Source: Alloalcanivorax marinus (GTDB taxonomy: Bacteria > Pseudomonadota > Gammaproteobacteria > Pseudomonadales > Alcanivoracaceae). Taken from it: a stretch of DNA of 64,000 nucleotides. The notes beneath the pieces are model-generated. The model searched no databases. It was not told where the DNA came from and saw only the letters and a program-made list of their open reading frames with translations. Where the stretch lies: NCBI RefSeq assembly GCF_016906305.1, contig NZ_JADDOL010000008.1, positions 1 to 64,000 of the forward strand, written 5' to 3'. Positions 47,027-61,086 of this stretch are shown piece after piece (within the stretch, counting starts at the first letter, position 1; each line of letters opens with the position of its first letter). A program made the position numbers and the translations under genes.

Positions 47027-48352
47027 TCAGGCCGCCGGCAACAGCCATAAGGACAACGCCGGCACCGCCACCAGCAGCGCGATGCGCACCAGGTCCGCGC
47101 CCAGGAATGGCAAGATGCCCCGGCTCACCGCTCCCAGGGAGGTACGCTCGCTGAACTTCTGAACGATGAACAGGTTCATGCCCATGGGCGGCGTGATCAG
47201 GCCGATTTCCACCACCATCAGGGCGATGATGCCGAACCAGATGGAAATCTGCGTCTGCGTAAGGTCGAAGAACGGCAGGCCCACCACGATCGGATAGAAG
47301 ATCGGCACGGTGAGCAGAATCATGGACAGGGAATCCATCACGCAGCCCAGCAGCAGGTAGATCACCAGAATCGACAGCAGCACAGCGAACGGCGCCATGC
47401 CGCTGGCCTGCACCCAGTTCGCCAGTTCCACCGGCATCCGGCTGAGCGCCAGGCCGCTGTTGAGCAGGTCGGCGCCGATCACCACCAGGTAGATCATGGC
47501 GGACGCCTCGGCGGTGCCGATCAGGCTTTTCACCAGACCCTCGCCGCGCAGACCGCCGCGCACCACGGCGAACAGACCGCAGGCGCCGGCGCCGATGGAC
47601 GCCGCCTCGGTGAGATTGGCCCAGCCGCCATAGATACCGAAAATCACCACCAGAAACACCAGCAGTACCGGTGAGACTTCCGCCAGCGCACGCAGGCGAG
47701 TGCGCCACGCGGCTTTGGGAATACGCGGCGCGGCGCGCATGGTGCGCATGGCCACCAGACGAATCACGATCAGATAGCCGAGCATGGCCACCAAACCGGG
47801 AATGATCGCCGCCACGAACAGCTTGCCGATGGATTCCTGGGTCAGCACCGCGTAGACGATCAGCGGCACGGACGGCGGGATCAGAATGCCCAGGGTGCCG
47901 CCGGCGGCGATGGTGCCGGCGGCCAGCTTGTTCGGGTAGTGGTGCTTTTCCAGCTCCGGCAGCGCCACCTGGCTCATGGTGGCGGCGGTGGCCAGGGACG
48001 AACCGCAAATGGCACCGAAGCCGGCGCAAGCGCCGGCGGCGGACATCGCCAGCCCGCCCCGCCAGTGGCCGATGAAGGCGGAAGCGGCGCGGAACAGCGC
48101 CCGGGACAAACCACCATGGATGGCGAACTGACCCATCAGCACGAACAGAGGAATCACCGCCAGGTCGTAATCGGACACCCGCGCGTAGACCAGATTATTG
48201 ACGGTGAAGAGCAGCGCGTTGAGGTCACCGTGATTGACCAGCACGTAGCAGAGGATACCGGCCAGGAACATGCCGATGCCCACGTGCACGCGCAGCGCCA
48301 GCAGGCCCATCAGCACCGCCAGCACCAGCAGGCCGGTTTCCATGCCGCTCAT
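47027..48352 (-). CDS. dctM: TRAP transporter large permease (DctM)
   Basis: A 441-residue inner-membrane protein of the TRAP large-subunit family with about 12 helices. Features include VHVGIGMFLAGILCYVLVNH, GAICGSSLATAATMSQVALP and PMGMNLFIVQKFSERTSLG. It forms the Na+-driven channel with DctQ. ATG 48352 overlaps the dctQ stop by 4 bp (ATGA). The context (aromatic-acid catabolic genes next door, shared operator) suggests a hydroxyphenylacetate-type substrate; this is inference. Confidence 0.93.
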   Translation of the reverse strand: MSGMETGLLVLAVLMGLLALRVHVGIGMFLAGILCYVLVNHGDLNALLFTVNNLVYARVSDYDLAVIPLFVLMGQFAIHGGLSRALFRAASAFIGHWRGGLAMSAAGACAGFGAICGSSLATAATMSQVALPELEKHHYPNKLAAGTIAAGGTLGILIPPSVPLIVYAVLTQESIGKLFVAAIIPGLVAMLGYLIVIRLVAMRTMRAAPRIPKAAWRTRLRALAEVSPVLLVFLVVIFGIYGGWANLTEAASIGAGACGLFAVVRGGLRGEGLVKSLIGTAEASAMIYLVVIGADLLNSGLALSRMPVELANWVQASGMAPFAVLLSILVIYLLLGCVMDSLSMILLTVPIFYPIVVGLPFFDLTQTQISIWFGIIALMVVEIGLITPPMGMNLFIVQKFSERTSLGAVSRGILPFLGADLVRIALLVAVPALSLWLLPAA

Positions 48353-48819
48353 GATCCGATCTCCCGGGCCGCCCGGTACAGTCCGCAAACGGCGAGCAAT
48401 GCCAGGCTCGGCACCATCAGCCCCTGGGGCCACCAAAGCGGTACGCCCAGCATGGTGGAGGTGGAACCGTAATCCTGGCTGTTCTGCATCAGCAGAAAGG
48501 TGCGCCAGCCCATCAGTGCCGCCACCGCGGCCAGCAGCAGATGGCCAAAGGCGAGCAGCGCCCGGTTCACCGGCGCCGGCAGAAAGCCCGCGATCAGGTC
48601 CACCCGAATGTGGTTGTCGGTGATTTCGCACAGCGGCAGGAACGCCGTCACCGCCACGGCGATGGCCATTTGCAGCACTTCGATATCACCGGGAATGGGC
48701 GCGGAAAACAGCTTTCGCCCCACCAGTGACACCAGCGACATGAGGATCAGCACCAGGACGATGGCGCCACCGGCCAGGGCAAAGCCCAGCGACAATCGAC
48801 GCAGAATAACGCCCGCCAT
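48349..48819 (-). CDS. dctQ: TRAP transporter small permease (DctQ)
   Basis: A 156-residue protein with four hydrophobic helices (GGAIVLVLILMSLVSLVG, MAIAVAVTAFLPLCE, LLAFGHLLLAAVAALMGW, LMVPSLALLAVCGLYRAA). The length and topology fit DctQ. It lies between dctP and dctM with a 29-bp gap to dctP and a 4-bp overlap with dctM. Confidence 0.9.
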   Translation of the reverse strand: MAGVILRRLSLGFALAGGAIVLVLILMSLVSLVGRKLFSAPIPGDIEVLQMAIAVAVTAFLPLCEITDNHIRVDLIAGFLPAPVNRALLAFGHLLLAAVAALMGWRTFLLMQNSQDYGSTSTMLGVPLWWPQGLMVPSLALLAVCGLYRAAREIGS

Positions 48820-48848: not shown

Positions 48849-49913
48849 TCAGCGCGCCAGTTCCGGGATGTATTGCTTGACCGTTTTCTGAAGGCCGTCG
48901 AACAGGGCCTGGCGGTCCAGGCCGCCGTCATCGTTGGCCACCCAGTCATCCACCACGCTTTGCGACGCCTCCAGCATGGCCTGATAGGCGGCGGCGTCCA
49001 GGGTGATGATGGTGTGCGCGTCATCGCCGGCGATGCGGTTTTTTACCTGATCGATGGCCTTGTCCCAGGCCTTGCCGAAGCGCACGGTGAGTGCCTCGCC
49101 GCTGTACTCGTCGACGATTTTCCTGAGGTCATCCGGCAGGCCCTGATAGCGCTGACGGTTCATCAGCATGGCCAGGGTGGTCACCGTGGTGGTGGCCTGA
49201 TCCGGCCCGGTGGTGGTGTGGTAGAAGGTGGTTTCGTCCAGTTTGGTGGGCGGTACCACCTCCCACACCGCCAGGGCGCCGTCGATCACGCCCTTGGAGA
49301 GGGTGTCGGCGATCTGCGAGGGCGGCATGCTCACCGGGGTGGCGCCCACGGAGGTCAGGAAGCGGGACGCCAGCCGGGTGGACGCGCGCACGCGCAGGCC
49401 CTTCATGTCGTCCAGATTGCGCACCGCCTTGCGGGCGGTGTGCAGGGTGCCGCCACCGTCGCTGTAGACCGCCAGTACCTTGTAATCTTTGAAGTCGTCC
49501 TTGGCGTAGGTCGTGGAATAGTCCCAGATAATGCGGCTGGCGGTTTCACCGCCGGCCGGCAGCACGAACGGCAGCTCCAGCGCCTCGCTCCGCGGGAAGC
49601 GGCCGGCGGAATAACCCAGCGCCGTCCACACCACATCCACCACACCGTTGCGCGCCAGGTCCGCCAGCTGTCCGGGGGTACCGCCGAGCTGCATGGAAGG
49701 ATAGATCTCGCACTTGATACGGCCGTCCGACGCCGCCTTCATATCCTCGCACCAGGGCTCGATCACATTCTGCTGGGCGTTGGAATTGGCCGGCAGGAAA
49801 TGCTCGATGCGCAGCGTGACGCTGTCGTCGGCGTGGGCAGCGCCGAGGCTCAGGATCAGGCCCAGGGCGGTGCCGGCGATTCGGAGGGGGAGGTTTCTTA
49901 TACGGGTTTTCAT
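48849..49913 (-). CDS. dctP: TRAP transporter substrate-binding protein (DctP)
   Basis: A 354-residue periplasmic binding protein. The signal peptide ends at AHA before DDSVTL. The DctP fold is seen in RIEHFLPANSNAQQNVIEPW, RVRASTRLASRFLTSVGATP (with the family's ligand arginine) and MPPSQIADTLSKGVIDGALA. It is the first gene of the dctPQM unit, divergent from the monooxygenase. The shared intergenic region holds a CATTAA-N4-TTAATG palindrome identical to one before the hpa operon, so it is likely induced together with it. Confidence 0.93.
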   Translation of the reverse strand: MKTRIRNLPLRIAGTALGLILSLGAAHADDSVTLRIEHFLPANSNAQQNVIEPWCEDMKAASDGRIKCEIYPSMQLGGTPGQLADLARNGVVDVVWTALGYSAGRFPRSEALELPFVLPAGGETASRIIWDYSTTYAKDDFKDYKVLAVYSDGGGTLHTARKAVRNLDDMKGLRVRASTRLASRFLTSVGATPVSMPPSQIADTLSKGVIDGALAVWEVVPPTKLDETTFYHTTTGPDQATTTVTTLAMLMNRQRYQGLPDDLRKIVDEYSGEALTVRFGKAWDKAIDQVKNRIAGDDAHTIITLDAAAYQAMLEASQSVVDDWVANDDGGLDRQALFDGLQKTVKQYIPELAR

Positions 49914-50224
49914 GGCGACCTCTCGCTGTCTTTGTTTGTTGTTTTCGGTGGCGACACAGGGCGTCCAGCGCGCCACAATCCATTAATTTGTTAATGAATA
50001 CTAAACAGGCTCCGAGCGGCCGGTCAATGCGCCGGCCCGAATAAAATCGCTTCGACCAGTGCGGGTATACATTCGCGGATGCAGCCGTTGAAAAGTGCAA
50101 TTTTTCCTCCGGAAAACACCTGGGACTGGCGACGGGGCTCACCGATGATGAAAAAAGCAACGCGATCACATCCACCCCGATCGCCCAAAAAAACGCTCAT
50201 CAGAACAAAAAGGGAGAAGTCGCA
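49914..50224. other. 311-bp divergent promoter region, dctP / monooxygenase
   Basis: Gene-free, AT-richer than its surroundings. It contains the palindrome CATTAATTTGTTAATG (49981-49996). Short ORFs in it have no conserved content. The monooxygenase ribosome site (GGGAG) is at its right end. I cannot assign -35/-10 elements with confidence. Confidence 0.6.
49981..49996. promoter_or_regulatory. Candidate HpaR operator 1
   Basis: CATTAA-TTTG-TTAATG is a perfect 6+4+6 palindrome, 68 bp upstream of dctP. Its arms are identical to those of the site at 53056-53071. MarR-type regulators such as HpaR bind palindromes of this size. Confidence 0.65.
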
Positions 50225-52135
50225 GTGCAGTTCCATCACCACGGCTATGTATCCAGCGATCCCCGCATCGAGGACGCCGCCGGCACCGGCATCAACCGAC
50301 CGGAGGACCTGCCCGAGCGAGTCGATGTGCTGATCGTCGGCAGCGGACCGGCGGGCATGATCGCCGCCGCCCAGCTGGCCAAATACCCCGACATCACCAC
50401 CCGCATCGTGGAACGCCGTCCGGGCCGCCTGAAACTGGGCCAGGCCGACGGCATCCAGGCACGCAGCGTGGAAACCTTCCAGGCCTTCGGCTTCGCCGAA
50501 CGCATTACCGCCGAGGCCTACCGCATTACGGAGATGGCGTTCTGGTCGCCGGACCCGGCCAACCCCGAGCACATCGCCCGCGCCTCGGTGGCGCTGGATG
50601 ATGGCACCGGCGAGATCAGCGAATTCCCACACCTGATCGTCAACCAGGCCCGGGTGCTGGATTACTTCGCGGAATGTGCTCGCAACGCCCCGGCACGCAT
50701 TGAGCCGGACTACGGTCTGGAATTCATCGGGCTGAGCATTGATCGGAGCGCCGAGTATCCGGTCACCGTGACCCTGCGCCAGGTGAGCGGCGAACGGGAA
50801 GGTGAGACGCGCACCGTGCACGCCAAATACGTGATCGGCTGCGACGGCGCCCACAGCAAAGTGCGCGAAGCCATTGGCCGCCAGCACCTGGGCAAGGTGG
50901 CCAACCACGCCTGGGGCGTGATGGACGTGCTCGCCACCACCGATTTCCCGGACATTCGCACCAAGTGCGCGATCCAGTCCTCCAGCGGCGGCAGCATCCT
51001 GCATATTCCCCGCGAAGGCGGCCACCTGTTCCGCATGTACGTGGACCTGGGCGAGGTGTCCGCCGACGACAACCGCCAAGTGCGTCAGACCACCCTGGAG
51101 ACCACCGTGGCCAAGGCCAATCGCATCCTCCATCCCTATACCCTGGAGGTGAAGGACTGCGCCTGGTATACGGTTTACGAGGTGGGCCACCGGGTCACCG
51201 ACAAGTTCGACGACGTGGACCCGGGGGACGAGGGCCGGGTCGCGCCGCGCGTGTTCATCGCCGGCGACGCCTGCCACACCCACAGCGCCAAGGCCGGCCA
51301 GGGCATGAACGTGTCCATGCAGGACGGCTGGAACATCGCCTGGAAACTGGGCCAGGTACTGTCCGGCCAGGCGCCGCCGGAACTGCTGGCCACCTATTCC
51401 GAGGAGCGCCAGGAAGTGGCGCAGAACCTGATCGACTTCGACCGCGAATGGTCGAGCCTGATGGCCAGGCCCACCGAGGAATTCGAGGACCCCAGGGAAC
51501 TGGCGGACTTTTATGTGAAAACCGCGGAATTCCCCGCCGGCTTCATGACCGAGTACCGCCCTTCAATGATCACCGGCGACACCCGTCACCAGGCTCTCGC
51601 CACGGGTTTTCCAGTGGGCAAACGCTTCAAGTCGGCGCCGGTGATGCGAGTGTGCGACGGCAATGATGTGCACCTGGGCCACCACGCCACCGCCGACGGT
51701 CGCTGGCGCCTCTACGCCTTCGCCGACGCCGGGGCCGAGCGACTGAACCGCTGGGCCGAATGGATGCTCGACGATGCCGCCTCGCCGGTGGTGCGCTTCA
51801 CCCCGGACGGCGCCGACCTGGACAGCCTGTTCGACATCAAGGTGATCTATCAGCAAACCCACGGCGATGTGGAGTTCGGCCCGTCCATCCCACCGCTTTT
51901 CCAACCCCGCGTGGGCCCTTTCCAGCTCATCGACTACGAAAAGGTCTACGCCATCGATCCGCGACAGGACATCTTCGAGGCACGCGGCATCGACCGAGGC
52001 GGGGCCGTGATCGTGGTACGGCCGGACCAGTACGTTTCCCTGGTACTGCCGCTCGGGGCGGTGGACGAGCTGGCGACGTTCTTCGAGGCCAATACACGTG
52101 AGCCCGCTCAGCCGCGGCGGTGTCGGCGGCGATAA
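50225..52135 (+). CDS. MobA-like FAD aromatic monooxygenase (candidate hydroxyphenylacetate hydroxylase)
   Basis: A class A flavoprotein of 636 residues. It has the FAD fingerprint VDVLIVGSGPAGMIAAAQLA near residue 33, the second motif YVIGCDGAHSKVREAIG, and RVFIAGDACHTHSAKAGQGM with the GD site, followed by a C-terminal thioredoxin-like domain ending VVRPDQYVSLVLPLG. Start, length and motifs closely resemble MobA, 3-hydroxybenzoate 4-hydroxylase. It begins at GTG 50225 (GGGAG upstream). It lies by hpaA and the homoprotocatechuate operon, where HpaBC is absent. By analogy it may hydroxylate 3-hydroxyphenylacetate at C4 (or 4-HPA at C3). Confidence 0.87.
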   Translation: MQFHHHGYVSSDPRIEDAAGTGINRPEDLPERVDVLIVGSGPAGMIAAAQLAKYPDITTRIVERRPGRLKLGQADGIQARSVETFQAFGFAERITAEAYRITEMAFWSPDPANPEHIARASVALDDGTGEISEFPHLIVNQARVLDYFAECARNAPARIEPDYGLEFIGLSIDRSAEYPVTVTLRQVSGEREGETRTVHAKYVIGCDGAHSKVREAIGRQHLGKVANHAWGVMDVLATTDFPDIRTKCAIQSSSGGSILHIPREGGHLFRMYVDLGEVSADDNRQVRQTTLETTVAKANRILHPYTLEVKDCAWYTVYEVGHRVTDKFDDVDPGDEGRVAPRVFIAGDACHTHSAKAGQGMNVSMQDGWNIAWKLGQVLSGQAPPELLATYSEERQEVAQNLIDFDREWSSLMARPTEEFEDPRELADFYVKTAEFPAGFMTEYRPSMITGDTRHQALATGFPVGKRFKSAPVMRVCDGNDVHLGHHATADGRWRLYAFADAGAERLNRWAEWMLDDAASPVVRFTPDGADLDSLFDIKVIYQQTHGDVEFGPSIPPLFQPRVGPFQLIDYEKVYAIDPRQDIFEARGIDRGGAVIVVRPDQYVSLVLPLGAVDELATFFEANTREPAQPRRCRRR

Positions 52136-53007
52136 CGTCCCGGCGTGGTGCCGGTCTCGCGGGTAAAGAAGCGTGAGAAGTAAGCCGGATCGTTGAATCC
52201 GAGCCGGTAGCCGATCTCATTAATGGAGGCGGCGGTGAAGATCAGCAGCCGTCGCGCCTCCTGGACCTGACGGTCGAACACCAGCCGCTTGCTGGGTTTG
52301 CCGGCGGTGCGCCGACAGATCTCGTTGAGCCGGTTTTCGGTCACATCCAGCGCCTCGGCGTACTGAAGCAGGGTCCAATGCTGGGCGTGATGCGCCTCGA
52401 TCAGCATCTGGAAACGCTGAAACACGGCCAGGTCCTCGTGGCGGGCCGGTTGCGACGGCAGCGCGCTGCTGGATAACCGGAACAGGCGGATAAAGATCAG
52501 TCGCGCCAGGCTGCGCACCGCCACCTCGCGGCCGGCGCCGTCACTGGCGGCCTCGTCGCCGAGCGCGTCGAACAGGCGCTCCAGACGATCCAGCTCGGGG
52601 TGCCGGTGCGGTTCCAATTGCGCGCGGGCCACGCACAGCGGCCGTACCTCGGCGGGGTCGGCCAGGTCACCACTCTCCTCCAGCAGGCTCCACACCAACT
52701 GCTGGCGCACGGTGAGTACATGCCCGTCGGCGTCCGCCTGGGTCACGAAAGCGTGGGTCACGGTGGGCGGCGTCAGGAAAAACAGGGGCCCGTGCTGGTG
52801 ATGCTGGCGCTCGTCCAGATAAACGCGCACCAGGCCGCTTTTGACGAAGTGCACCTGAAAGAAGCGGTCGTGACGGTGGGCCGGCATATTGCGGCCGAAG
52901 AAATCCGCCATCGGTCCCAGGGCGTCGTAGTGCACCTCCGCATCCGCGTAGCGCTGGTCGTAGACCTGACCGATGTTGATGTTGGGAATCGGTTCGTTGT
53001 TGTTCAT
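52108..53007 (-). CDS. hpaA: AraC-family activator HpaA
   Basis: The 4-hydroxyphenylacetate catabolism activator, 299 residues. The cupin sensor part has HYDALGPMADFFGRNMPAHR, HDRFFQVHF and LTPPTVTHAFVT. The C-terminal HTH part has YAEALDVTENRLNEICRR and INEIGYRLGFNDPAYFSRFF. These match E. coli HpaA closely. ATG 53007 follows GGAGGG. Its 3' end overlaps the convergent monooxygenase gene by 28 bp. It is divergent from hpaG1 and next to the candidate HpaR operator. In E. coli it activates the hydroxylase genes, so here it may activate the monooxygenase. Confidence 0.92.
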   Translation of the reverse strand: MNNNEPIPNINIGQVYDQRYADAEVHYDALGPMADFFGRNMPAHRHDRFFQVHFVKSGLVRVYLDERQHHQHGPLFFLTPPTVTHAFVTQADADGHVLTVRQQLVWSLLEESGDLADPAEVRPLCVARAQLEPHRHPELDRLERLFDALGDEAASDGAGREVAVRSLARLIFIRLFRLSSSALPSQPARHEDLAVFQRFQMLIEAHHAQHWTLLQYAEALDVTENRLNEICRRTAGKPSKRLVFDRQVQEARRLLIFTAASINEIGYRLGFNDPAYFSRFFTRETGTTPGRYRRRHRRG

Positions 53008-53048
53008 AGGGCCCTCCGGGACCCAGCATAACCGATCGCGTCGGCCGC

Positions 53049-53077
53049 TTGAATTCATTAACATCTTAATGTACAAA
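53049..53077 (+). promoter_or_regulatory. Candidate hpa operon promoter
   Basis: TTGAAT (53049-53054), 17-bp spacer, TACAAA (53072-53077). The palindromic operator 53056-53071 fills the spacer, which is the classic position for repression. Confidence 0.55.
53056..53071. promoter_or_regulatory. Candidate HpaR operator 2
   Basis: CATTAA-CATC-TTAATG has the same arms as 49981-49996. It lies between the divergent hpaA and hpaG1 starts, within the promoter spacer of the hpa operon, whose last gene encodes HpaR. Confidence 0.7.
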
Positions 53078-53105: not shown

Positions 53106-53885
53106 ATGCGCCACGCCCTCGTGGAAATCAACGGCGAACCGACCGCCGTCACCATGGACGGTGAGCGGTTGCGCCGGGTCGACGGCGAGACCCTCGCCGC
53201 GGCCCCGGCCCGCTGGCTGCCACCGGTATCCGGTGTCGTATTCGGCATCGCCCTCAATGACCGGGCCCTGCTGGAGTCCCACCTGGAAAGCTTCAAACAG
53301 CCCCCCTACGAAAAGCCGCCCACCAGGCCGGTGCTGTTCATCAAGACCCCGAATACCCGCAACGGCCATCTCGGATCGGTGGCGCGGCCCGCTGTCGAGC
53401 GTCTGCAGCCGGGCCCGTCGCTGGGCGTGGTGATCGGTAAAACCGCCAGCCGGGTGAACGAAGAGGATGCCCTGGCCCATGTGGCCGGCTACACCGTGGT
53501 CAACGAGTTCAGCCTGCCGGAGGACAGCTACTACCGCCCGGCGGTGAAGGCCAAATGCCGCGACGGCTTCTGCCCCATCGGCCCCTGGGTCACCGACGCC
53601 GCCGACGTCGGCGACCCGGCCGGCCTGGGCGTGCGCCTCACCGTCAATGGTGAGCTCAGACAGGAGGGCAACACTGGCAACTTCGTGCGCCCGGTGGCGC
53701 GACTGATCGCCGAGCTCAGCGAATTCATGACCCTGCACGAAGGCGACGTGCTGATCGCCGGCGTGCCGGCCGGCCGCGTGGACGTTCAGCCCGGCGACGA
53801 AGTGGCGGTGGAGATCGACAAGGTCGGCACCCTGGTGTCGTTGGTGACGGAAGAAGATACCACCCGGGAAGGAGACCGCTCATGA
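53106..53885 (+). CDS. hpaG1: HpaG1, N-terminal half of homoprotocatechuate isomerase/decarboxylase
   Basis: A 259-residue FAH-superfamily protein corresponding to the first half of E. coli HpaG. Typical segments are VVFGIALNDRALLESH, KPPTRPVLFIKTPNT, PAVKAKCRDGFCPIGPWV and LSEFMTLHEGDVLIAGVPAG. It lacks the ExE metal pair seen in HpaG2 (SLGVVIGK replaces ECELVAVIGK); the same is true of the E. coli N-terminal half. Expected to isomerise 2-hydroxyhepta-2,4-diene-1,7-dioate. AGGAG precedes the ATG. It is first in the operon and overlaps hpaG2 by 4 bp. Confidence 0.9.
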   Translation: MRHALVEINGEPTAVTMDGERLRRVDGETLAAAPARWLPPVSGVVFGIALNDRALLESHLESFKQPPYEKPPTRPVLFIKTPNTRNGHLGSVARPAVERLQPGPSLGVVIGKTASRVNEEDALAHVAGYTVVNEFSLPEDSYYRPAVKAKCRDGFCPIGPWVTDAADVGDPAGLGVRLTVNGELRQEGNTGNFVRPVARLIAELSEFMTLHEGDVLIAGVPAGRVDVQPGDEVAVEIDKVGTLVSLVTEEDTTREGDRS

Positions 53886-54661
53886 AACACGCTCGCATCC
53901 AGCACCGGGGCCAGGTGCTCGACGTCACCGTCAATGACGACGGCGATATCCTGATGGCCGACGGCACGCCGCTCGACGCCGGCGAGGTGACCTGGCTGCC
54001 GCCGGCCACCGGCACCATGTTCGCCCTGGGCCTCAACTACGCCGACCACGCCGCCGAGCTGAGCTTCAAATCGGCGCCCAAGGAACCGCTGGTGTTCGTC
54101 AAGGCGCCCAACGCCTACACCGGCCACGACGGTTACAGCTGGCGCCCGGACAACGTGGATTACATGCACTACGAGTGCGAGCTGGTGGCGGTAATCGGCA
54201 AGGCCGCGCGCAACGTCCGCCGCGCCGACGCCCTGGAGTACGTGGCCGGCTACACGCTCTGCAACGACTACGCCATCCGCGACTACCTGGAAAACTACTA
54301 CCGGCCCAACCTGCGCGTGAAAAACCGTGACAGCACCACCCCGGTGGGCCCCTGGATCATCGACAGGAGCCAGGTTCCAGAACCCAACAACCTGACCCTG
54401 CGCACCTACATCAACGGCGAGCTGAAACAGGAAGGCACCACCGCCGACATGATTTTCGACGTGCCCTTCCTGATCGAATACCTGTCCGGCTTCATGACCC
54501 TGCGGCCCGGCGACATGATCGCCACCGGCACGCCCAAGGGCATGGCGGACGTGCAACCCGGCGACGTGGTGGACGTGGAGATCGAGGGCATCGGTCGGCT
54601 GCGCAACACCATGCTCAGCGAAAGTGAATTCTTCAAGAACGCGAAGGAGCAGTCATCGTGA
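53882..54661 (+). CDS. hpaG2: HpaG2, 5-oxopent-3-ene-1,2,5-tricarboxylate decarboxylase
   Basis: A 259-residue FAH-superfamily protein, the separate counterpart of the C-terminal half of E. coli HpaG. It carries the metal ligands in YMHYECELVAVIGK (ExE) and AGYTLCNDYAIRDYLENYY, then RVKNRDSTTPVGPW and MTLRPGDMIATGTPKGMADV. It decarboxylates the product of the earlier steps. It overlaps hpaG1 (ATGA) and hpaE (GTGA), so translation is coupled on both sides. Confidence 0.93.
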   Translation: MKHARIQHRGQVLDVTVNDDGDILMADGTPLDAGEVTWLPPATGTMFALGLNYADHAAELSFKSAPKEPLVFVKAPNAYTGHDGYSWRPDNVDYMHYECELVAVIGKAARNVRRADALEYVAGYTLCNDYAIRDYLENYYRPNLRVKNRDSTTPVGPWIIDRSQVPEPNNLTLRTYINGELKQEGTTADMIFDVPFLIEYLSGFMTLRPGDMIATGTPKGMADVQPGDVVDVEIEGIGRLRNTMLSESEFFKNAKEQSS

Positions 54662-56118
54662 TCAAGCACTGGATTAACGGCCGGGAAGTGGAAAGCCCGG
54701 AAACGTTCGACAACATCAACCCGGCCACCGGCGAAGTGATCGGCCCGGTAGCCAGCGGCACCGAGAAGGAAGTGAACGAAGCGGTGGCCGCCGCCAAGGC
54801 CGCCTTCCCCGGCTGGGCCAACACCCCGGCCAAGGAACGGGCCCGTCTGATGCGCCGCCTCGGCGAGTTGATCGACGAGAACGTGCCGCGCCTGGCGGAG
54901 CTGGAGACCCTGGATACCGGCCTGCCTATCCATCAGACCAGGAACGTGCTGATCCCGCGCGCCTCGCACAACTTCAATTTCTTCGCCGAAGTCTGCACGC
55001 GCATGAACGGCCACACCTACCCGGTGGACGACCAGATGCTCAACTACACCCTGTACCAGCCGGTAGGGGTGTGCGCGCTGGTGTCACCGTGGAACGTGCC
55101 GTTCATGACCGCCACCTGGAAAACCGCCCCCTGCCTGGCGCTGGGCAATACCGCCGTGCTCAAGATGTCCGAGTTGTCGCCAATGACCGCCGCCGAGCTG
55201 GGCAAGCTGACCAAGGAGGCGGGCATTCCGGATGGCGTGTTCAACGTGATTCAGGGCTACGGGTCCACCGCCGGCGACGCCCTGGTGCGCCACCCAGACG
55301 TGCGCGCGGTGTCCTTCACCGGCGGCACCGCCACCGGTCGCAAGATCGTGCAGAACGGCGGCATGAAGAAGTACTCCATGGAACTGGGCGGCAAGTCGCC
55401 GGTGCTGGTGTTCGAGGACGCGGACCTGGATCGCGCCCTGGACGCCGCCCTGTTCACCATCTTCTCCCTGAACGGCGAGCGTTGCACCGCCGGCAGCCGC
55501 ATCTTCATTCAGGAAAGTGTCTATGACGAGTTCGTCAAGAAATTCGCCGAACGCGCCAAGAAGCTGAAGGTGGGTGACCCGGAGAACCCGGACACCCAGG
55601 TCGGTTCCATGATCACCCGGCAGCACTACGAGAAAGTCACCGGCTACATCCGCATCGGCATCGAGGAAGGCGCCAAACTGGTGGCCGGCGGCCTGGAACG
55701 CCCGGAGGGCCTGCCCGACCGGGTCGCCAACGGCCAGTTCATCCAGCCCACGGTGTTCGCCGACGTGGACAACAAAATGCGCATCTGCCAGGAGGAAATC
55801 TTCGGCCCGGTGGTGTGCCTGGGCAAGTTCACCGATGAGGCACACGCCCTGGAGCTGGCCAACGACGTGCAGTACGGCCTGGCCTCCTACGTCTGGACCG
55901 AGAACCTGGCCAAGGCCCACCGCATGGCGCGGGGCATCGAAGCGGGCATGGTGTTCATCAACAGCCAGAACGTACGCGACCTGCGCCAGCCGTTCGGCGG
56001 CATCAAGCAATCCGGCACCGGCCGCGAAGGCGGTGAATACAGCTTCGAGGTGTTCACCGAGGTGAAGAACGTCTGCGTCGCCATGGGCCACCATCACATT
56101 CCGCGCTGGGGCGTCTGA
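54658..56118 (+). CDS. hpaE: 5-carboxymethyl-2-hydroxymuconate semialdehyde dehydrogenase HpaE
   Basis: An NAD-dependent aldehyde dehydrogenase of 486 residues that oxidises the ring-cleavage semialdehyde. It starts at GTG 54658, overlapping hpaG2. Motifs are VSPWNVPFMTATWKTAP, FTGGTATGRKIVQN, MELGGKSPVLVFED with the catalytic Glu, and LNGERCTAGSRIFIQ with the catalytic Cys. The sequence IKHWINGREVESPETFDNIN is typical of HpaE. It is followed by hpaD after 28 bp. Confidence 0.95.
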   Translation: MIKHWINGREVESPETFDNINPATGEVIGPVASGTEKEVNEAVAAAKAAFPGWANTPAKERARLMRRLGELIDENVPRLAELETLDTGLPIHQTRNVLIPRASHNFNFFAEVCTRMNGHTYPVDDQMLNYTLYQPVGVCALVSPWNVPFMTATWKTAPCLALGNTAVLKMSELSPMTAAELGKLTKEAGIPDGVFNVIQGYGSTAGDALVRHPDVRAVSFTGGTATGRKIVQNGGMKKYSMELGGKSPVLVFEDADLDRALDAALFTIFSLNGERCTAGSRIFIQESVYDEFVKKFAERAKKLKVGDPENPDTQVGSMITRQHYEKVTGYIRIGIEEGAKLVAGGLERPEGLPDRVANGQFIQPTVFADVDNKMRICQEEIFGPVVCLGKFTDEAHALELANDVQYGLASYVWTENLAKAHRMARGIEAGMVFINSQNVRDLRQPFGGIKQSGTGREGGEYSFEVFTEVKNVCVAMGHHHIPRWGV

Positions 56119-56146: not shown

Positions 56147-57010
56147 ATGGGAGAGGTCGTTCTCGCCGCCAAAGTCTGCCATGTGCCGTCCATGTACCTG
56201 TCCGAATTGCCGGGCCCCCATCAGGGGTGCCGGCAGGCGGCCATCGACGGCCACAAGGAAATCGGCCGCCGCGCCCGCGAGCTGGGCGCCGACACCGCCC
56301 TGGTGTTCGACGTGCACTGGCTGGTCAACAGCGGCTACCACATCAACTGCGGTGAACGGTTCGAGGGCATCTACACCAGCAACGAGCTGCCCCACTTCAT
56401 CAAGGACATGCACTACCAGTACGACGGCGCCCCGGATCTGGGCGAACTCATCGCCGAGCAGGCCAACGCCGCCGACGTGCGCACCCGGGCCCACAATATT
56501 CCCAGCCTGCATCTGGAGTACGGCACCCTGGTGCCGATGCGCTACATGCACATGGACGTGCCTCGGGAGCAGCATTTGAAGGTGGTGTCGGTGGCGTCCT
56601 GGTGCGCCTGGCACCGGCTGGAGGACAGCTTTGCCTTCGGCGCCGCCGTGCGTCGCGCCATCGAGGCGAGCGACCGCAAGGTCATGGTGCTGGCCTCCGG
56701 CTCCCTGTCGCACCGTTTCTCCGACGACCGGCTGGCCGACCAGAACCTGCACAAGTGGAGCCGGGAGTTCGACCGGCAGATGGATCTGCGCGTGGTGGAA
56801 CTGTGGAAGCAGGGCCGCTTCAGGGAATTCTGCGCCATGCTGCCGGACTACGCCGAGCACTGCTATGGCGAGGGCGGCATGCACGACACCGCCATGCTGC
56901 TGGGGCTGCTTGGCGGCGAGGATTACGACCGGCCGGTGGAAGTGCTCACCGATCTGTACGCCAGTTCCGGCACCGGGCAGATCAACGCCGTCTTTCCCCT
57001 GCCCTGGTGA
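56147..57010 (+). CDS. hpaD: 3,4-dihydroxyphenylacetate 2,3-dioxygenase HpaD
   Basis: A class III (LigB-type) extradiol dioxygenase of 287 residues that opens homoprotocatechuate. It closely resembles E. coli HpaD. Likely Fe ligands are His12 (KVCHVPSMYL) and His57 (VFDVHWLVN). YTSNELPHFIKDMHYQYDG, IPSLHLEYGTLVPMRYMH, VLASGSLSHRF and SSGTGQINAVFPLP are conserved. AAGGAG precedes the ATG. A REP hairpin separates it from hpaF. Confidence 0.96.
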   Translation: MGEVVLAAKVCHVPSMYLSELPGPHQGCRQAAIDGHKEIGRRARELGADTALVFDVHWLVNSGYHINCGERFEGIYTSNELPHFIKDMHYQYDGAPDLGELIAEQANAADVRTRAHNIPSLHLEYGTLVPMRYMHMDVPREQHLKVVSVASWCAWHRLEDSFAFGAAVRRAIEASDRKVMVLASGSLSHRFSDDRLADQNLHKWSREFDRQMDLRVVELWKQGRFREFCAMLPDYAEHCYGEGGMHDTAMLLGLLGGEDYDRPVEVLTDLYASSGTGQINAVFPLPW

Positions 57011-57108: not shown

Positions 57109-57498
57109 ATGCCCCACTTTATCGCCGAATACAGCGGCAACCTGGAAGGCGACGCGGACTTTCCCGCCCTGTTCGAAACCGTGCATAACGTGCTCGGCGA
57201 CTCCGGCGTGTTCCCGCTGGGCGGCATCCGCAGCCGTGCCATCCGTCACGACACCTACCGCATCGCCGACGGCGAGCACGACTACGCCTTCGTGCACATG
57301 AGCCTGAAGGTGGGCAGCGGGCGCGACCTGGCCACCCGCAAAAAAGTCGCGGAAACCCTGTTCGAGGCGATCAAGGCGCACTTCGCGCCGCTCCAGGAAA
57401 AACGCCTGCTGGCGGTGTCCTTCGAGATGACCGAACTGGACCCGGACCTGAACTTCAAACACAACAACATCCATGCCTTTCTCAAGGGGGAGCGCTGA
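57109..57498 (+). CDS. hpaF: 5-carboxymethyl-2-hydroxymuconate isomerase HpaF
   Basis: A 129-residue tautomerase-superfamily enzyme. Proline follows the initiator Met ([14 protein letters not shown]), giving the catalytic N-terminal Pro after Met removal. [18 protein letters not shown] and [20 protein letters not shown] match HpaF. It isomerises the HpaE product. AAGGAG lies upstream, and its stop overlaps the hpaH start by one base. Confidence 0.94.
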
Positions 57499-58301
57499 TG
57501 CTCGACGACGCTTTCATCCGCCAGGCCGTGCAACGGCTCGACGACGCCGAACGGCAACGCACCCAGATCCGCCAGTTTTCCCTGGAACAGCCGGACATTA
57601 CCATCGAGGACGCCTACGCCATCCAGCGTGCCTGGGTGGACAGAAAAATCGCCGACGGGCGCAAGCTGATCGGCCACAAGATCGGCCTGACGTCACGGGC
57701 CATGCAGGTGTCGTCCAACATCGACGAGCCGGACTACGGCGCGCTGCTCGACGACATGCTGTTCGACGAAGGCACCGACATTCCCATTGATCGCTTTATC
57801 GTGCCGCGTCTGGAGGTGGAGCTGGCGTTTATCCTCGGCAAGCCGCTGAAGGGCCCCAACTGCACCGTTTTCGATGTCTACGACGCCACCGAGTATGTGA
57901 TTCCCGCCCTGGAGATCATCGACGCGCGTATCCAGCAGGTGGACCAGGACACCGGCGTCACCCGCAAGGTGTTCGACACCATCTCCGACAACGCCGCCAA
58001 CGCCGGCGTGGTCCTGGGTGGCCGGCCGATCCGGGCCATGGATCTGGACCTGCGCCGGGTGTCGGCGATTCTCTATCGCAACGGGGTGATCGAGGAATCC
58101 GGCGTCGCCGCCGCGGTGCTCAACCACCCGGCCAAGGGCGTGGCCTGGCTGGCCAACCGCCTGGCCCCCTATGACGTGGGCCTGGAGGCCGGCCAGTTGA
58201 TCCTGGGCGGCTCCTTCACCCGGCCGGTGGCGGTGCGCCCCGGCGACACCTTCCACGTGGACTACGACGACCTGGGCGCCATCGCCTGCCGGTTCGTTTA
58301 A
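57498..58301 (+). CDS. hpaH: 2-oxo-hept-4-ene-1,7-dioate hydratase HpaH
   Basis: A 267-residue hydratase related to MhpD/Xyl[36 protein letters not shown] (ExE metal site near residue 107) and [18 protein letters not shown] are diagnostic. It adds water to the linear oxo-diacid to give 4-hydroxy-2-oxoheptanedioate, the HpaI substrate. It is overlapped by hpaF (one base) and followed by hpaI after 10 bp. Confidence 0.95.
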
Positions 58302-58311
58302 GGATTAACGG

Positions 58312-59118
58312 ATGGACATGCCCGTCAACACCTTCAAACAGGCCCTCGCCGAGGGCCGCCCACAAATCGGCCTGTGGCTGGGACTGTGCGACGCCTACTG
58401 CGCCGAGCTGGCCGCCAACGCCGGCTTCGACTGGCTGCTGATGGACGGCGAACACGCCCCCAACGATCTGCGCTCTCTGCTGGCTCAGCTGCAGGCGGTG
58501 GCGCCCTACCCGGCCCGGCCGGTGCTGCGCCCGCCGGTGGGCGACACCGCCCTGATCAAGCAGTACCTGGACATCGGCGCCCAGACCCTGCTGGTGCCGA
58601 TGGTGGACAGCGCCAACCAGGCCCGCCAGCTGGTGCGCGCCCTGCGCTACCCGCCGGACGGCGTGCGCGGCGTGGGCAGTGCCCTGGCCCGCGCCTCGCG
58701 TTGGAACAGCGTGCCCGACTACCTGGACCGGGCCGATGAGCAGATGTGCCTGCTGGTGCAGATCGAAAGTGCCGAGGCCCTGAACAACCTGGACGAGATC
58801 GCCGCCGTGGAAGGGGTGGACGGCGTCTTCATCGGACCGGCGGACCTGAGCGCCTCCCTGGGCCACCGGGGCAACCCGGCACACCCGGACGTGCAGGCGG
58901 CCATCGAGAACGCCATCGCGCGTATCCGCCGGGCCGGCAAGGCCGCCGGGATTCTCAGCGCCAACCGGGACCTGGCAAGGCGCTATCTGGAATTGGGCTG
59001 CCTGTTCGTGGCCGTGGGTGTGGACACCAGCCTGCTGATGGGCGCGCTCAAGGGCCTCGCCGCCGAGTTCAAGGGCGACGACGCCCCGGCGGCCTCCGCC
59101 GGCCCGTCCGTTTACTGA
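58312..59118 (+). CDS. hpaI: 4-hydroxy-2-oxoheptanedioate aldolase HpaI
   Basis: A class II (metal-dependent) aldolase of 268 residues that splits the seven-carbon acid into pyruvate and succinic semialdehyde. The catalytic His lies in [15 protein letters not shown] near residue 47, with metal ligands in [15 protein letters not shown] and [21 protein letters not shown] precedes the ATG (a second ATG two codons later is possible). The succinic semialdehyde dehydrogenase gene follows after 31 bp. Confidence 0.95.
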
Positions 59119-59149: not shown

Positions 59150-60619
59150 ATGACCGACTCTCCCCTGGCCCTGGCCGACGCGGGCCTGCTGCGCGCGCAA
59201 AGCTACATCGACGGCCACTGGCGGGACGCCGACGGCGGCGCCCGCTTTCCGGTGCGCGACCCGGCGGACCGGAGCCTGATCACCCAGGTGGCGGACGCCG
59301 GCGCCACGGACACCGACCGCGCCATCGACGCCGCCGCCCGGGCCCTGCCCGCCTGGCGCCAACGGCCCGCCAAAGAACGCTCGCGGATCCTGCACCGCTG
59401 GTTCGACCTGATGCTCCAGCACAAGGAAGACCTGGCGCGGCTGCTCAGCCGCGAACAGGGCAAGCCGCTGGCGGAAAGCCGGGGCGAAATCGACTACGCG
59501 GCCGGCTTTATCGAGTGGTTCGCCGAGGAGGCCAAACGCGTCAACGGCGAGCTGCTGGCCGGCGACCGGCCAGGCCGGCGGCTGGTCACGCTCAAGCAGC
59601 CGGTGGGCGTGGTAGCGGCCATCACCCCCTGGAACTTCCCCTGCGCCATGGTCACCCGCAAGGCGGGCCCGGCCCTGGCGGCGGGCTGCACCCTGGTGCT
59701 CAAGCCGGATCCGGAAACGCCGCTGTCGGCGCTGGCCCTGGCCGAGCTGGCCCGGCGCGCCGGCCTGCCCGCCGGGGTGTTCAACGTGGTGCCCGGCCGC
59801 GACGCCGCCGCCATCGGCGCCCGCCTCACCGGCGACCCGAGGGTGCGCAAGCTGTCGTTCACCGGCTCCACGGCGGTGGGCAAACGGCTGATGGCGCAAT
59901 GTGCGGACACGGTGAAGAAGCTGAGCCTGGAGCTGGGTGGCAACGCCCCTTTCATCGTGTTCGACGACGCCAACCTGGACGCCGCCGTTGAAGGCGCCCT
60001 GGCCTCGAAGTTCCGCAACAGCGGCCAGACCTGCGTGTGCACCAACCGTTTTCTGGTCCAGGACGGCATCCACGATGCCTTCTGCGAGAAACTGGCGCGG
60101 GCGGTGGAGGCGTTGAAGGTGGGCCCCGCCGGCGACGAGCACGCTCGGCAGGGCCCGTTGATCCACGCCGGCGCCCTCGACAAGGTGCAAACGCACGTGG
60201 ATGACGCCCTGGCGGGCGGCGCCCGGCTGTTGTGCGGCGGCGGCCCCCATGCGTTGGGCGGCGGCTTCTTTCAGCCCACCGTGCTCAGCGGTGTCACCCC
60301 GGCCATGCGCGTGGCCCGGGAGGAGACCTTCGGCCCCCTGGCGCCGGTGTTCCGCTTCCACGACGAGGCCGAGGCGCTGGCCCTGGCCAACGACACGCCC
60401 TCCGGGCTGGCCGCCTATGTGTACAGCGGCGATCTCGGGCGTGCCTGGCGGCTGGCGGAGGCGCTGGAATATGGCATGGTCGGCGTCAACGAAGGTATCA
60501 TCTCCACCGAACTGGCCCCCTTCGGCGGCATCAAGGAATCCGGGCTGGGCCGCGAAGGCTCCCGCCACGGTATCGATGACTATCTGGAACTGAAATACCT
60601 GTGCGTGGCGGATCCGTAA
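59150..60619 (+). CDS. gabD: Succinate-semialdehyde dehydrogenase (GabD-like)
   Basis: An NAD(P)-dependent aldehyde dehydrogenase of 489 residues. VVAAITPWNFPCAMVTRKAG, FTGSTAVGKRLMAQC, LELGGNAPFIVFDDAN and NSGQTCVCTNRFLVQ (catalytic Cys) match GabD. Located after hpaI, it should oxidise the succinic semialdehyde to succinate and so complete the pathway. AAGGAA lies before the ATG. Confidence 0.93.
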   Translation: MTDSPLALADAGLLRAQSYIDGHWRDADGGARFPVRDPADRSLITQVADAGATDTDRAIDAAARALPAWRQRPAKERSRILHRWFDLMLQHKEDLARLLSREQGKPLAESRGEIDYAAGFIEWFAEEAKRVNGELLAGDRPGRRLVTLKQPVGVVAAITPWNFPCAMVTRKAGPALAAGCTLVLKPDPETPLSALALAELARRAGLPAGVFNVVPGRDAAAIGARLTGDPRVRKLSFTGSTAVGKRLMAQCADTVKKLSLELGGNAPFIVFDDANLDAAVEGALASKFRNSGQTCVCTNRFLVQDGIHDAFCEKLARAVEALKVGPAGDEHARQGPLIHAGALDKVQTHVDDALAGGARLLCGGGPHALGGGFFQPTVLSGVTPAMRVAREETFGPLAPVFRFHDEAEALALANDTPSGLAAYVYSGDLGRAWRLAEALEYGMVGVNEGIISTELAPFGGIKESGLGREGSRHGIDDYLELKYLCVADP

Positions 60620-60657
60620 ACCTTCACCGCGCCGCATCCGAGGAGCACCCCGACCGC

Positions 60658-61086
60658 ATGGCCAAACCCACGCCTTCTTTGACCGTGGCCCTGCTTCAGG
60701 CCCGCGAGGCCGCCATGGGCTTTTTCCGTCCCCTGCTCAACGAGCACGGCCTTACCGAGCAGCAATGGCGCGTGATCCGCATCCTCAAGGAGGTCCCGGA
60801 CCACCAGTTGGAGAGCCGCGAACTGGCGGAAATCGCCTGTATCCTGCGTCCCAGCCTCACCGGCGTGCTGGTGCGTCTGGAGAAAACCGGCTACGTGAAA
60901 CGCTGGAAGCCCGCTAATGACCAGCGCCGGCTGTGCGTGGCCCTGACCGAGGCCGGCCATCGCCTGTTCGATACCATGAGCGGCGATATGCACAAGCAAT
61001 ACCGCCGCATCAAACGCCAGCTCGGCGCCGACAACTACAAGACCCTGATGACGCTGCTCGAACAATTGCAGCGCGTGGAACCCTAG
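60658..61086 (+). CDS. hpaR: MarR-family repressor HpaR
   Basis: A 142-residue MarR-type winged-helix regulator. MGFFRPLLNEHGLTEQQWRV, RELAEIACILRPSLTGVLVR (recognition helix region) and ANDQRRLCVALTEAG fit HpaR. It is the homoprotocatechuate operon repressor, relieved by pathway aromatic acids. ATG 60658 is chosen (GAGGAG upstream). It is the last gene of the operon; candidate operators are 49981-49996 and 53056-53071. It overlaps the convergent terC gene by 4 bp. Confidence 0.92.
   Translation: MAKPTPSLTVALLQAREAAMGFFRPLLNEHGLTEQQWRVIRILKEVPDHQLESRELAEIACILRPSLTGVLVRLEKTGYVKRWKPANDQRRLCVALTEAGHRLFDTMSGDMHKQYRRIKRQLGADNYKTLMTLLEQLQRVEP

Follow-up and report, generated by a model that had tools for sequence, protein, structure and literature searches.

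The closest described systems are the hpa clusters of Escherichia coli and Yersinia pseudotuberculosis, in which HpaR controls hpaGEDFHI. Two HpaR sites have been footprinted before hpaG1 in Y. pseudotuberculosis, with the core TTAA-N4-TTAA and a likeness to E. coli W (PMC7180172), binding of HpaR upstream of both hpaA and the meta-cleavage operon is reported for Acinetobacter baumannii (PMC12718150), and the hpaBC promoter of E. coli is activated by HpaA (PMC4468947). The stretch considered here, hereafter the window, is the 64,000 nucleotides at positions 1 to 64,000 of contig NZ_JADDOL010000008.1 of Alloalcanivorax marinus, which contains genes for a tripartite ATP-independent periplasmic (TRAP) transporter, dctPQM, a divergent gene for a MobA-like monooxygenase, and an hpa cluster. 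Two identical palindromes, one between dctP and the monooxygenase gene (site 1) and one between hpaA and hpaG1 (site 2), are almost certainly HpaR operators. The regulator family, the operator core and the place of the core before hpaG are those of the described systems, but here there is a second probable operator on the TRAP promoter, whereas the E. coli cluster has the HpaX permease and HpaBC.

Both palindromes, CATTAATTTGTTAATG at 49981-49996 and CATTAACATCTTAATG at 53056-53071, are exact instances of CATTAA-N4-TTAATG with zero mismatches, as the initial annotation had described them. They are the only 2 matches in the window when up to 2 mismatches are allowed, compared with a mean of 0.14 in 100 dinucleotide shuffles. 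In the whole genome (4,054,516 bases) there are again 2 exact copies, both in the window, with 0 for the reversed control pattern and approximately 0.007 expected from composition alone (GC content of the window 67.1%). Many unrelated genomic copies would have spoken against a shared regulator; the sites are instead present only around hpa genes. Allowing up to 2 mismatches gives 15 places in the genome, being the 2 exact copies, 0 with one mismatch and 13 with two, and as the control pattern has 10 such places there is no halo of near-copies and the signal is the two sites themselves. The shorter core, TTAA-N4-TTAA, to which both palindromes conform, is found 7 times in the genome, against 3 for its control. 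None of the five cores outside the window has the CAT/ATG flanks, and no third core was found on the contig of the window, so that a large HpaR regulon is unsupported.

Comparison with relatives keeps both sites in place. Exactly two exact copies, 3.1-3.4 kb apart and at the same two places, are present in 8 of the 13 genomes of the genus, with zero exact copies in the remaining 5. Across the family, copies are found in 9 of 46 genomes, these eight and G030, where no query protein matched in the two stretches fetched around its two palindromes. HpaD is over its cut-off in 8 of the 46, which are the same eight two-copy genomes (hypergeometric 3.4e-8, a value that ignores relatedness). HpaR is over its cut-off in 9, the ninth being G005, which has no HpaD match and, in the 20 kb fetched around its HpaR gene, neither an hpa gene nor a core. 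When both intergenic regions are aligned across the eight genomes, the palindrome arms are invariant, whereas variation is seen in the four bases at the centre and in many flanking columns. Since the eight are also all of the HpaD-positive genomes in the family, the invariant arms are not a product of choosing genomes by pattern.

The wider order gives a similar picture. HpaR is over its cut-off in 48 of 390 genomes, six of this genus and 42 others, and the stretches compared were one for each of these 42, those of the other hpa- or HpaR-bearing genus members, and extensions; 60 were scored, omitting L128 (a 6-kb piece with one core) and L151-L153. Alignment A1 is without L121, and alignment A2, of HpaR, includes one HpaA protein by mistake. 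The core is present in 28 of the 31 stretches having at least 4 meta-cleavage genes, which together hold 81 cores, where approximate dinucleotide shuffling gives 8.1 and the control pattern is found 3 times. It is at most 350 bp before dctP in 10 of these 31, namely the eight genus members, L145 and L129; in L129 the DctP relative is distant (29%) and the core is closer to the C2 hydroxylase gene than to dctP. The core also precedes dctP in L147 and on a plasmid of Pseudomonas frederiksbergensis (L254), and the cores of L129, L145, L147 and L254 thus place the link between HpaR and the TRAP transporter in more than one gene order. Two results weigh against the operator reading. The 29 stretches with fewer than 4 meta-cleavage genes have 24 cores, in 15 of the stretches, compared with 8.6 in shuffles and 11 of the control pattern, although the two groups can be contrasted only roughly: fragments of clusters are among these 29, a genome may be represented by two stretches, and there is overlap between L110 and L147. 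In addition, no exact core is found in L127, L131 and L135, each with an HpaR-family gene and with five or six genes of meta-cleavage; their operator may have diverged.

Sites of this kind are also seen in the enterics. In E. coli strain REL606 the gap between hpaG and hpaR contains ATCATTAATATGTTAATGAT, an exact instance of the pattern of the window lying just upstream of hpaG (CATTAATATGTTAATG), and the core is present in the hpaR-hpaG gap of plasmid-borne clusters in Erwinia, Klebsiella, Providencia and Pantoea. The HpaR proteins of the window and of E. coli are 49% identical, with an identical ACILRPSLTG stretch that we take to be the recognition helix. The initial annotation had placed a MarR-type HpaR in the cluster, and this is borne out by the TIGR02337 score (Table 1) and by the match to 7el2, named HpaR, at 1.5e-36.

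The cores were also seen in other settings. In 4 of the 8 genus genomes the hpaG1 operator has a second, weaker core at a distance of 20 bp (L091:10523/10543; L092:7635/7655; L097:10907/10927; L098:7412/7432), and these pairs are possible tandem operators, two helical turns apart. An extra TTAA-N4-TTAA core (L154:4366, L155:4379) is found approximately 2.4 kb past dctM, with an aldehyde-dehydrogenase-like gene 1.4 kb downstream of it. On an Azotobacter plasmid with an hpa cluster, an OprD-family porin gene has a core (L255:16387) approximately 80 bp ahead of it, and porin uptake may there be part of the HpaR regulon. HpaR-family genes with no other hpa query match in 20 kb are found in L094 and L100-L103; of these L094, L101 and L102 are without a core, L100 has three and L103 has one.

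In the window both sites are in short intergenic DNA, at positions that suggest how HpaR might act. Site 2 occupies the 17-bp spacer between TTGAAT (53049-53054) and TACAAA (53072-53077), centred 42 bp ahead of hpaG1, with the start of hpaA 56 bp away. The initial annotation had called this a good -35/-10 pair; the palindrome does fill the spacer, but the pair has 8 of 12 consensus bases and the promoter scanner listed none there, which weighs against a promoter at this place, and it is best regarded as a fair consensus match and a guess. Site 1, in the divergent region between dctP and the monooxygenase gene, starts one base beyond the -10 of TTGACC-18-TAGTAT, a pair on the minus strand (50027-49998) that faces dctP and is a consensus match only, from a consensus scan (9 of 12 bases); its centre is 75 bp from the start of dctP and 236 bp from that of the monooxygenase gene. 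A repressor bound at such promoter positions blocks initiation, as HpaR would at both sites.

These sequence comparisons strongly support the view that HpaR controls uptake (dctPQM) jointly with ring cleavage (from hpaG1 onward). A single HpaR regulon of uptake, hydroxylation and ring cleavage had been proposed in the initial annotation; the rarity and conservation of the palindrome and its likeness to known HpaR sites support two of these three parts. The hydroxylation part does not hold up in the same way, as site 1 lies on the dctP pair, at a distance from the monooxygenase gene, and that gene has a conserved block of its own, the relatives of which seem to track HpaA rather than HpaR. The fuller explanation, in which HpaR governs uptake and ring cleavage and HpaA governs hydroxylation, is on present evidence probably correct.

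That block, GAAAAGTGCAATTTTT...CACCTGGG at 50090-50126 in the gap between dctP and the monooxygenase gene, is conserved in eight genus genomes. For its 15-base head the genome gives a single exact copy and two matches with 2 mismatches, the control having 2 and 3. Similar blocks are found 160-187 bp before C2-type hydroxylase genes (L099, L104, L109, L116, L120) and in Marinobacter, where they precede the MobA-like gene of loci L161 and L162 by 166 and 170 bp and also lie ahead of an hpaD-monooxygenase pair. The two parts of the nine blocks used as a model agree best at a 21-base offset (49% on average, versus 21-37% at six others), a spacing like that of the direct repeats of AraC-family proteins. 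This model was applied to the 330 bases preceding each hydroxylase gene, with 200 mononucleotide shuffles. All nine sites outside the training set that have HpaA in the same or an adjoining stretch are positive at p <=0.015 (L108, L111, L112, L119, L130, L131, L145, L146, and L147, with its HpaA in the adjoining L110); the signal is weak at L119 and L131, and a loose pattern had earlier picked out L130 and L131. L114, with its HpaA outside the stretch, and the C2 gene of L254 are also positive. The model is negative at all 5 hydroxylase loci of genomes without an HpaA match at 1e-20 (L129, L168, L194, L198, L199), two of which are from Salinisphaera. L194 is from Marinobacter orientalis, the genome of which gives no HpaA match; neither hpaD nor the monooxygenase gene is preceded there by an HpaA-type block, and the HpaR cores are retained; this may be a natural experiment.

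The assignment of the block to HpaA also has results against it. L125 is negative (p 0.13) though its genome has HpaA just under the cut-off, and L127, with a distant MobA relative (42%), is negative (p 0.06). In E. coli REL606, GAAAAGTACCAGCCATTGTC at -123 before hpaB resembles the blocks of L112 and L114, and the nine-block model gives p 0.072 and 0.067 upstream of hpaB, which is no more than suggestive; the site scores 3.2 bits, however, and is outscored by at least 6 other places in the 49-kb stretch (6.6-11.6 bits), an argument against a strong HpaA signal in that region. With the same model Pantoea is at 0.013, Providencia at 0.070, Erwinia at 0.037 (at a different place) and Klebsiella at 0.317. 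Extending the model by five of the left-out blocks gives 0 of 300 shuffles for E. coli and Pantoea, 0.010 for Erwinia, 0.013 for Providencia and 0.120 for Klebsiella, which is negative in both models. The tie between block and HpaA is thus weaker than that between palindrome and HpaR, and the block is a likely candidate for an HpaA site. The comparison with HpaA control of hpaBC in E. coli is similarly qualified: an HpaA-family regulator is present here too and a related block is possibly present before hpaB in the enterics, but the gene downstream of the block here is MobA-like rather than hpaB and its link to HpaA is a predicted one.

In the proposed mechanism, an HpaR dimer would, without substrate, lie in the -35/-10 spacer of hpaG1 and another just downstream of the dctP -10, such that dctPQM and the homoprotocatechuate ring-cleavage operon would be off together; hpaA, with its start so close to site 2, may be repressed by HpaR as well. 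HpaR would be released by the pathway substrate or an intermediate, and HpaA would sense the substrate and mainly drive the divergent MobA-like hydroxylase gene through the block at 50090-50126. The binding of HpaR and HpaA to the palindromes and the block is inferred, as are the direction of control, the nature of the inducer and the substrate, which would be 3- or 4-hydroxyphenylacetate. Genetic and biochemical evidence is reported for both 4-hydroxyphenylacetate (4-HPA) and 3,4-dihydroxyphenylacetate (3,4-HPA) as ligands of HpaR, while by calorimetry neither bound HpaR and HpaA bound 4-HPA (PMC10364317).

It is also conceivable, though unlikely, that there is a single HpaR regulon after all, in which HpaR at operator 1 would repress the divergent hydroxylase gene as much as dctPQM, leaving little for HpaA to add. 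Site 1 is in their shared divergent region, where HpaR could act on both genes, and an HpaR core is present 225 bp before the C2 hydroxylase gene in L099 and 39 bp before it in L129; against this are the overlap of site 1 with the dctP promoter-like pair, its distance from the monooxygenase start, and the conserved block of the monooxygenase gene. That the AraC-type HpaA, the gene for which is between the two sites, reads the palindrome would fit the location of site 2 in the hpaA-hpaG1 gap, but the core is kept in hpa stretches without an HpaA match (L129, L132, L134, L137), in two whole genomes without one (G173, the source of L129, and M. orientalis), and in the footprinted HpaR sites; this reading is disfavoured, since cores persist where HpaA does not match, and is very improbable.

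Equally improbable is another MarR-family protein as the main reader. There are 9 matches to the HpaR model in the genome at E 0.001 or better, but only one of these is over the cut-off, and the sites are confined to the surroundings of hpa genes and match known HpaR sites. The likeness of the palindromes could, lastly, be the chance likeness of two AT-rich intergenic stretches, given the short intergenic DNA in which both are found and the 1 in 100 window shuffles that attained 2 matches at up to 2 mismatches, a result that counts against the two-operator reading. Two exact copies far exceed the expectation from composition, however, and in the eight genomes the arms are identical while the centre varies; the paired copies in 8 of 13 genus genomes and their coincidence with HpaD already contradict it, and with the shuffles, the genome control, the near-copy counts and the excess of cores in the 31 stretches against it, chance is rejected as a practically negligible possibility.

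The monooxygenase is homologous over its full length to MobA (2dkh, 3-hydroxybenzoate 4-hydroxylase, presumably from Comamonas; 3e-205) and here the enzyme sits in hpa clusters. Residues Asp75, His135, Lys247 and Tyr271 of 2dkh, which we take to have a role in substrate binding, are kept in the alignment and are invariant in nine relatives. Phenol 2-monooxygenase is the only NCBIfam model over its cut-off for this monooxygenase family here. HpaBC and the C1/C2 4-HPA 3-hydroxylases would carry out the same expected step, and C2-type genes have similar upstream blocks, but the search of this genome gave no match for HpaB (PF03241) or for the C2-type oxygenase (NF045920), the latter being over its cut-off in 0 of 13 genus genomes. 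HpaB-family matches are found in 4 of the 13, and among the eight hpa-bearing ones only in G006; around the HpaB genes of G005, G006, G007 and G010 (L141-L144) there is no query protein match and no core. In view of the lack of an HpaB or C2 match in the genome, the MobA-like enzyme is the leading candidate for the step that yields homoprotocatechuate. The analogy with MobA would make 3-hydroxyphenylacetate the first substrate to consider; E. coli HpaBC accepts both isomers (PMC7201708).

One genome for each of 84,980 species was scanned for this monooxygenase, giving at least 538 stretches, of which the best 80 were used. At least 2 of hpaG2, hpaE, hpaH and hpaI are within 10 kb in 59 of these best 80 loci; the 66 that are actinobacterial by genus name comprise 45 with this linkage, one with a single gene and 20 with none. 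In a Marinobacter stretch (L121:14162-16078), the range matching the monooxygenase has an in-frame stop. In the literature found, with few subscription papers within reach and partial texts for those consulted, HpaR is not described as a regulator of TRAP transporter genes, and neither a mapped HpaA site nor a MobA-like hydroxyphenylacetate hydroxylase is reported.

The features of the locus are listed in Table 1. The start of hpaR was picked by homology inside the open reading frame 60601-61086, and dctM is named from the conserved order with dctQ and dctP and from tblastn relatives.

Table 1. Genes and predicted regulatory elements between dctM and hpaR in the window (ORF, open reading frame; FAD, flavin adenine dinucleotide)
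Feature	Position	Strand	Basis
dctM, TRAP large permease	47027..48352	-	ORF within 47027-48631, start chosen by the authors
dctQ, TRAP small permease	48349..48819	-	ORF; name from position and relatives
dctP, TRAP solute-binding protein	48849..49913	-	PF03480, 3.6e-48
Palindrome 1, probable HpaR operator of dctPQM	49981..49996		Exact copy; arms the same in 8 genus genomes
Promoter-like pair TTGACC-18-TAGTAT for dctP	49998..50027	-	Consensus scan, 9/12
Second conserved block, possible HpaA site	50090..50126	+	Conservation in 8 genus genomes
MobA-like single-component FAD monooxygenase	50225..52135	+	PF01494, PF07976; 2dkh, 3e-205
hpaA, AraC-type activator	52108..53007	-	TIGR02297, 386.4 bits, cut-off 274.65
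Promoter-like pair TTGAAT-17-TACAAA for hpaG1	53049..53077	+	Sequence reading, 8/12
Palindrome 2, probable HpaR operator of hpaG1 and possibly of hpaA	53056..53071		Exact copy
hpaG1	53106..53885	+	TIGR02305 over cut-off
hpaG2	53882..54661	+	TIGR02303 over cut-off
hpaE	54658..56118	+	TIGR02299 over cut-off
hpaD, ring-cleavage dioxygenase	56147..57010	+	TIGR02298 over cut-off
hpaF	57109..57498	+	ORF; name from position and relatives
hpaH	57498..58301	+	TIGR02312 over cut-off
hpaI	58312..59118	+	PF03328
gabD-like succinate-semialdehyde dehydrogenase	59150..60619	+	TIGR01780 over cut-off
hpaR, MarR-type repressor	60658..61086	+	TIGR02337, 166.6 bits, cut-off 121.2

There is perhaps an even chance that the MobA-like single-component flavin enzyme is a widespread, unrecognised hydroxyphenylacetate hydroxylase which replaces the unrelated two-component HpaBC and C1/C2 systems and is wired into the same HpaA element, with HpaR having acquired the TRAP genes. 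If so, one regulatory grammar would have been carried over unrelated enzymes and transporters. The two-regulator arrangement predicts from sequence which unit, uptake, hydroxylation or ring cleavage, answers to which regulator, and it gives a testable function to the monooxygenase family. If it is correct, the pair of DNA signatures could help to annotate hydroxyphenylacetate pathways in proteobacteria despite their differing enzymes.

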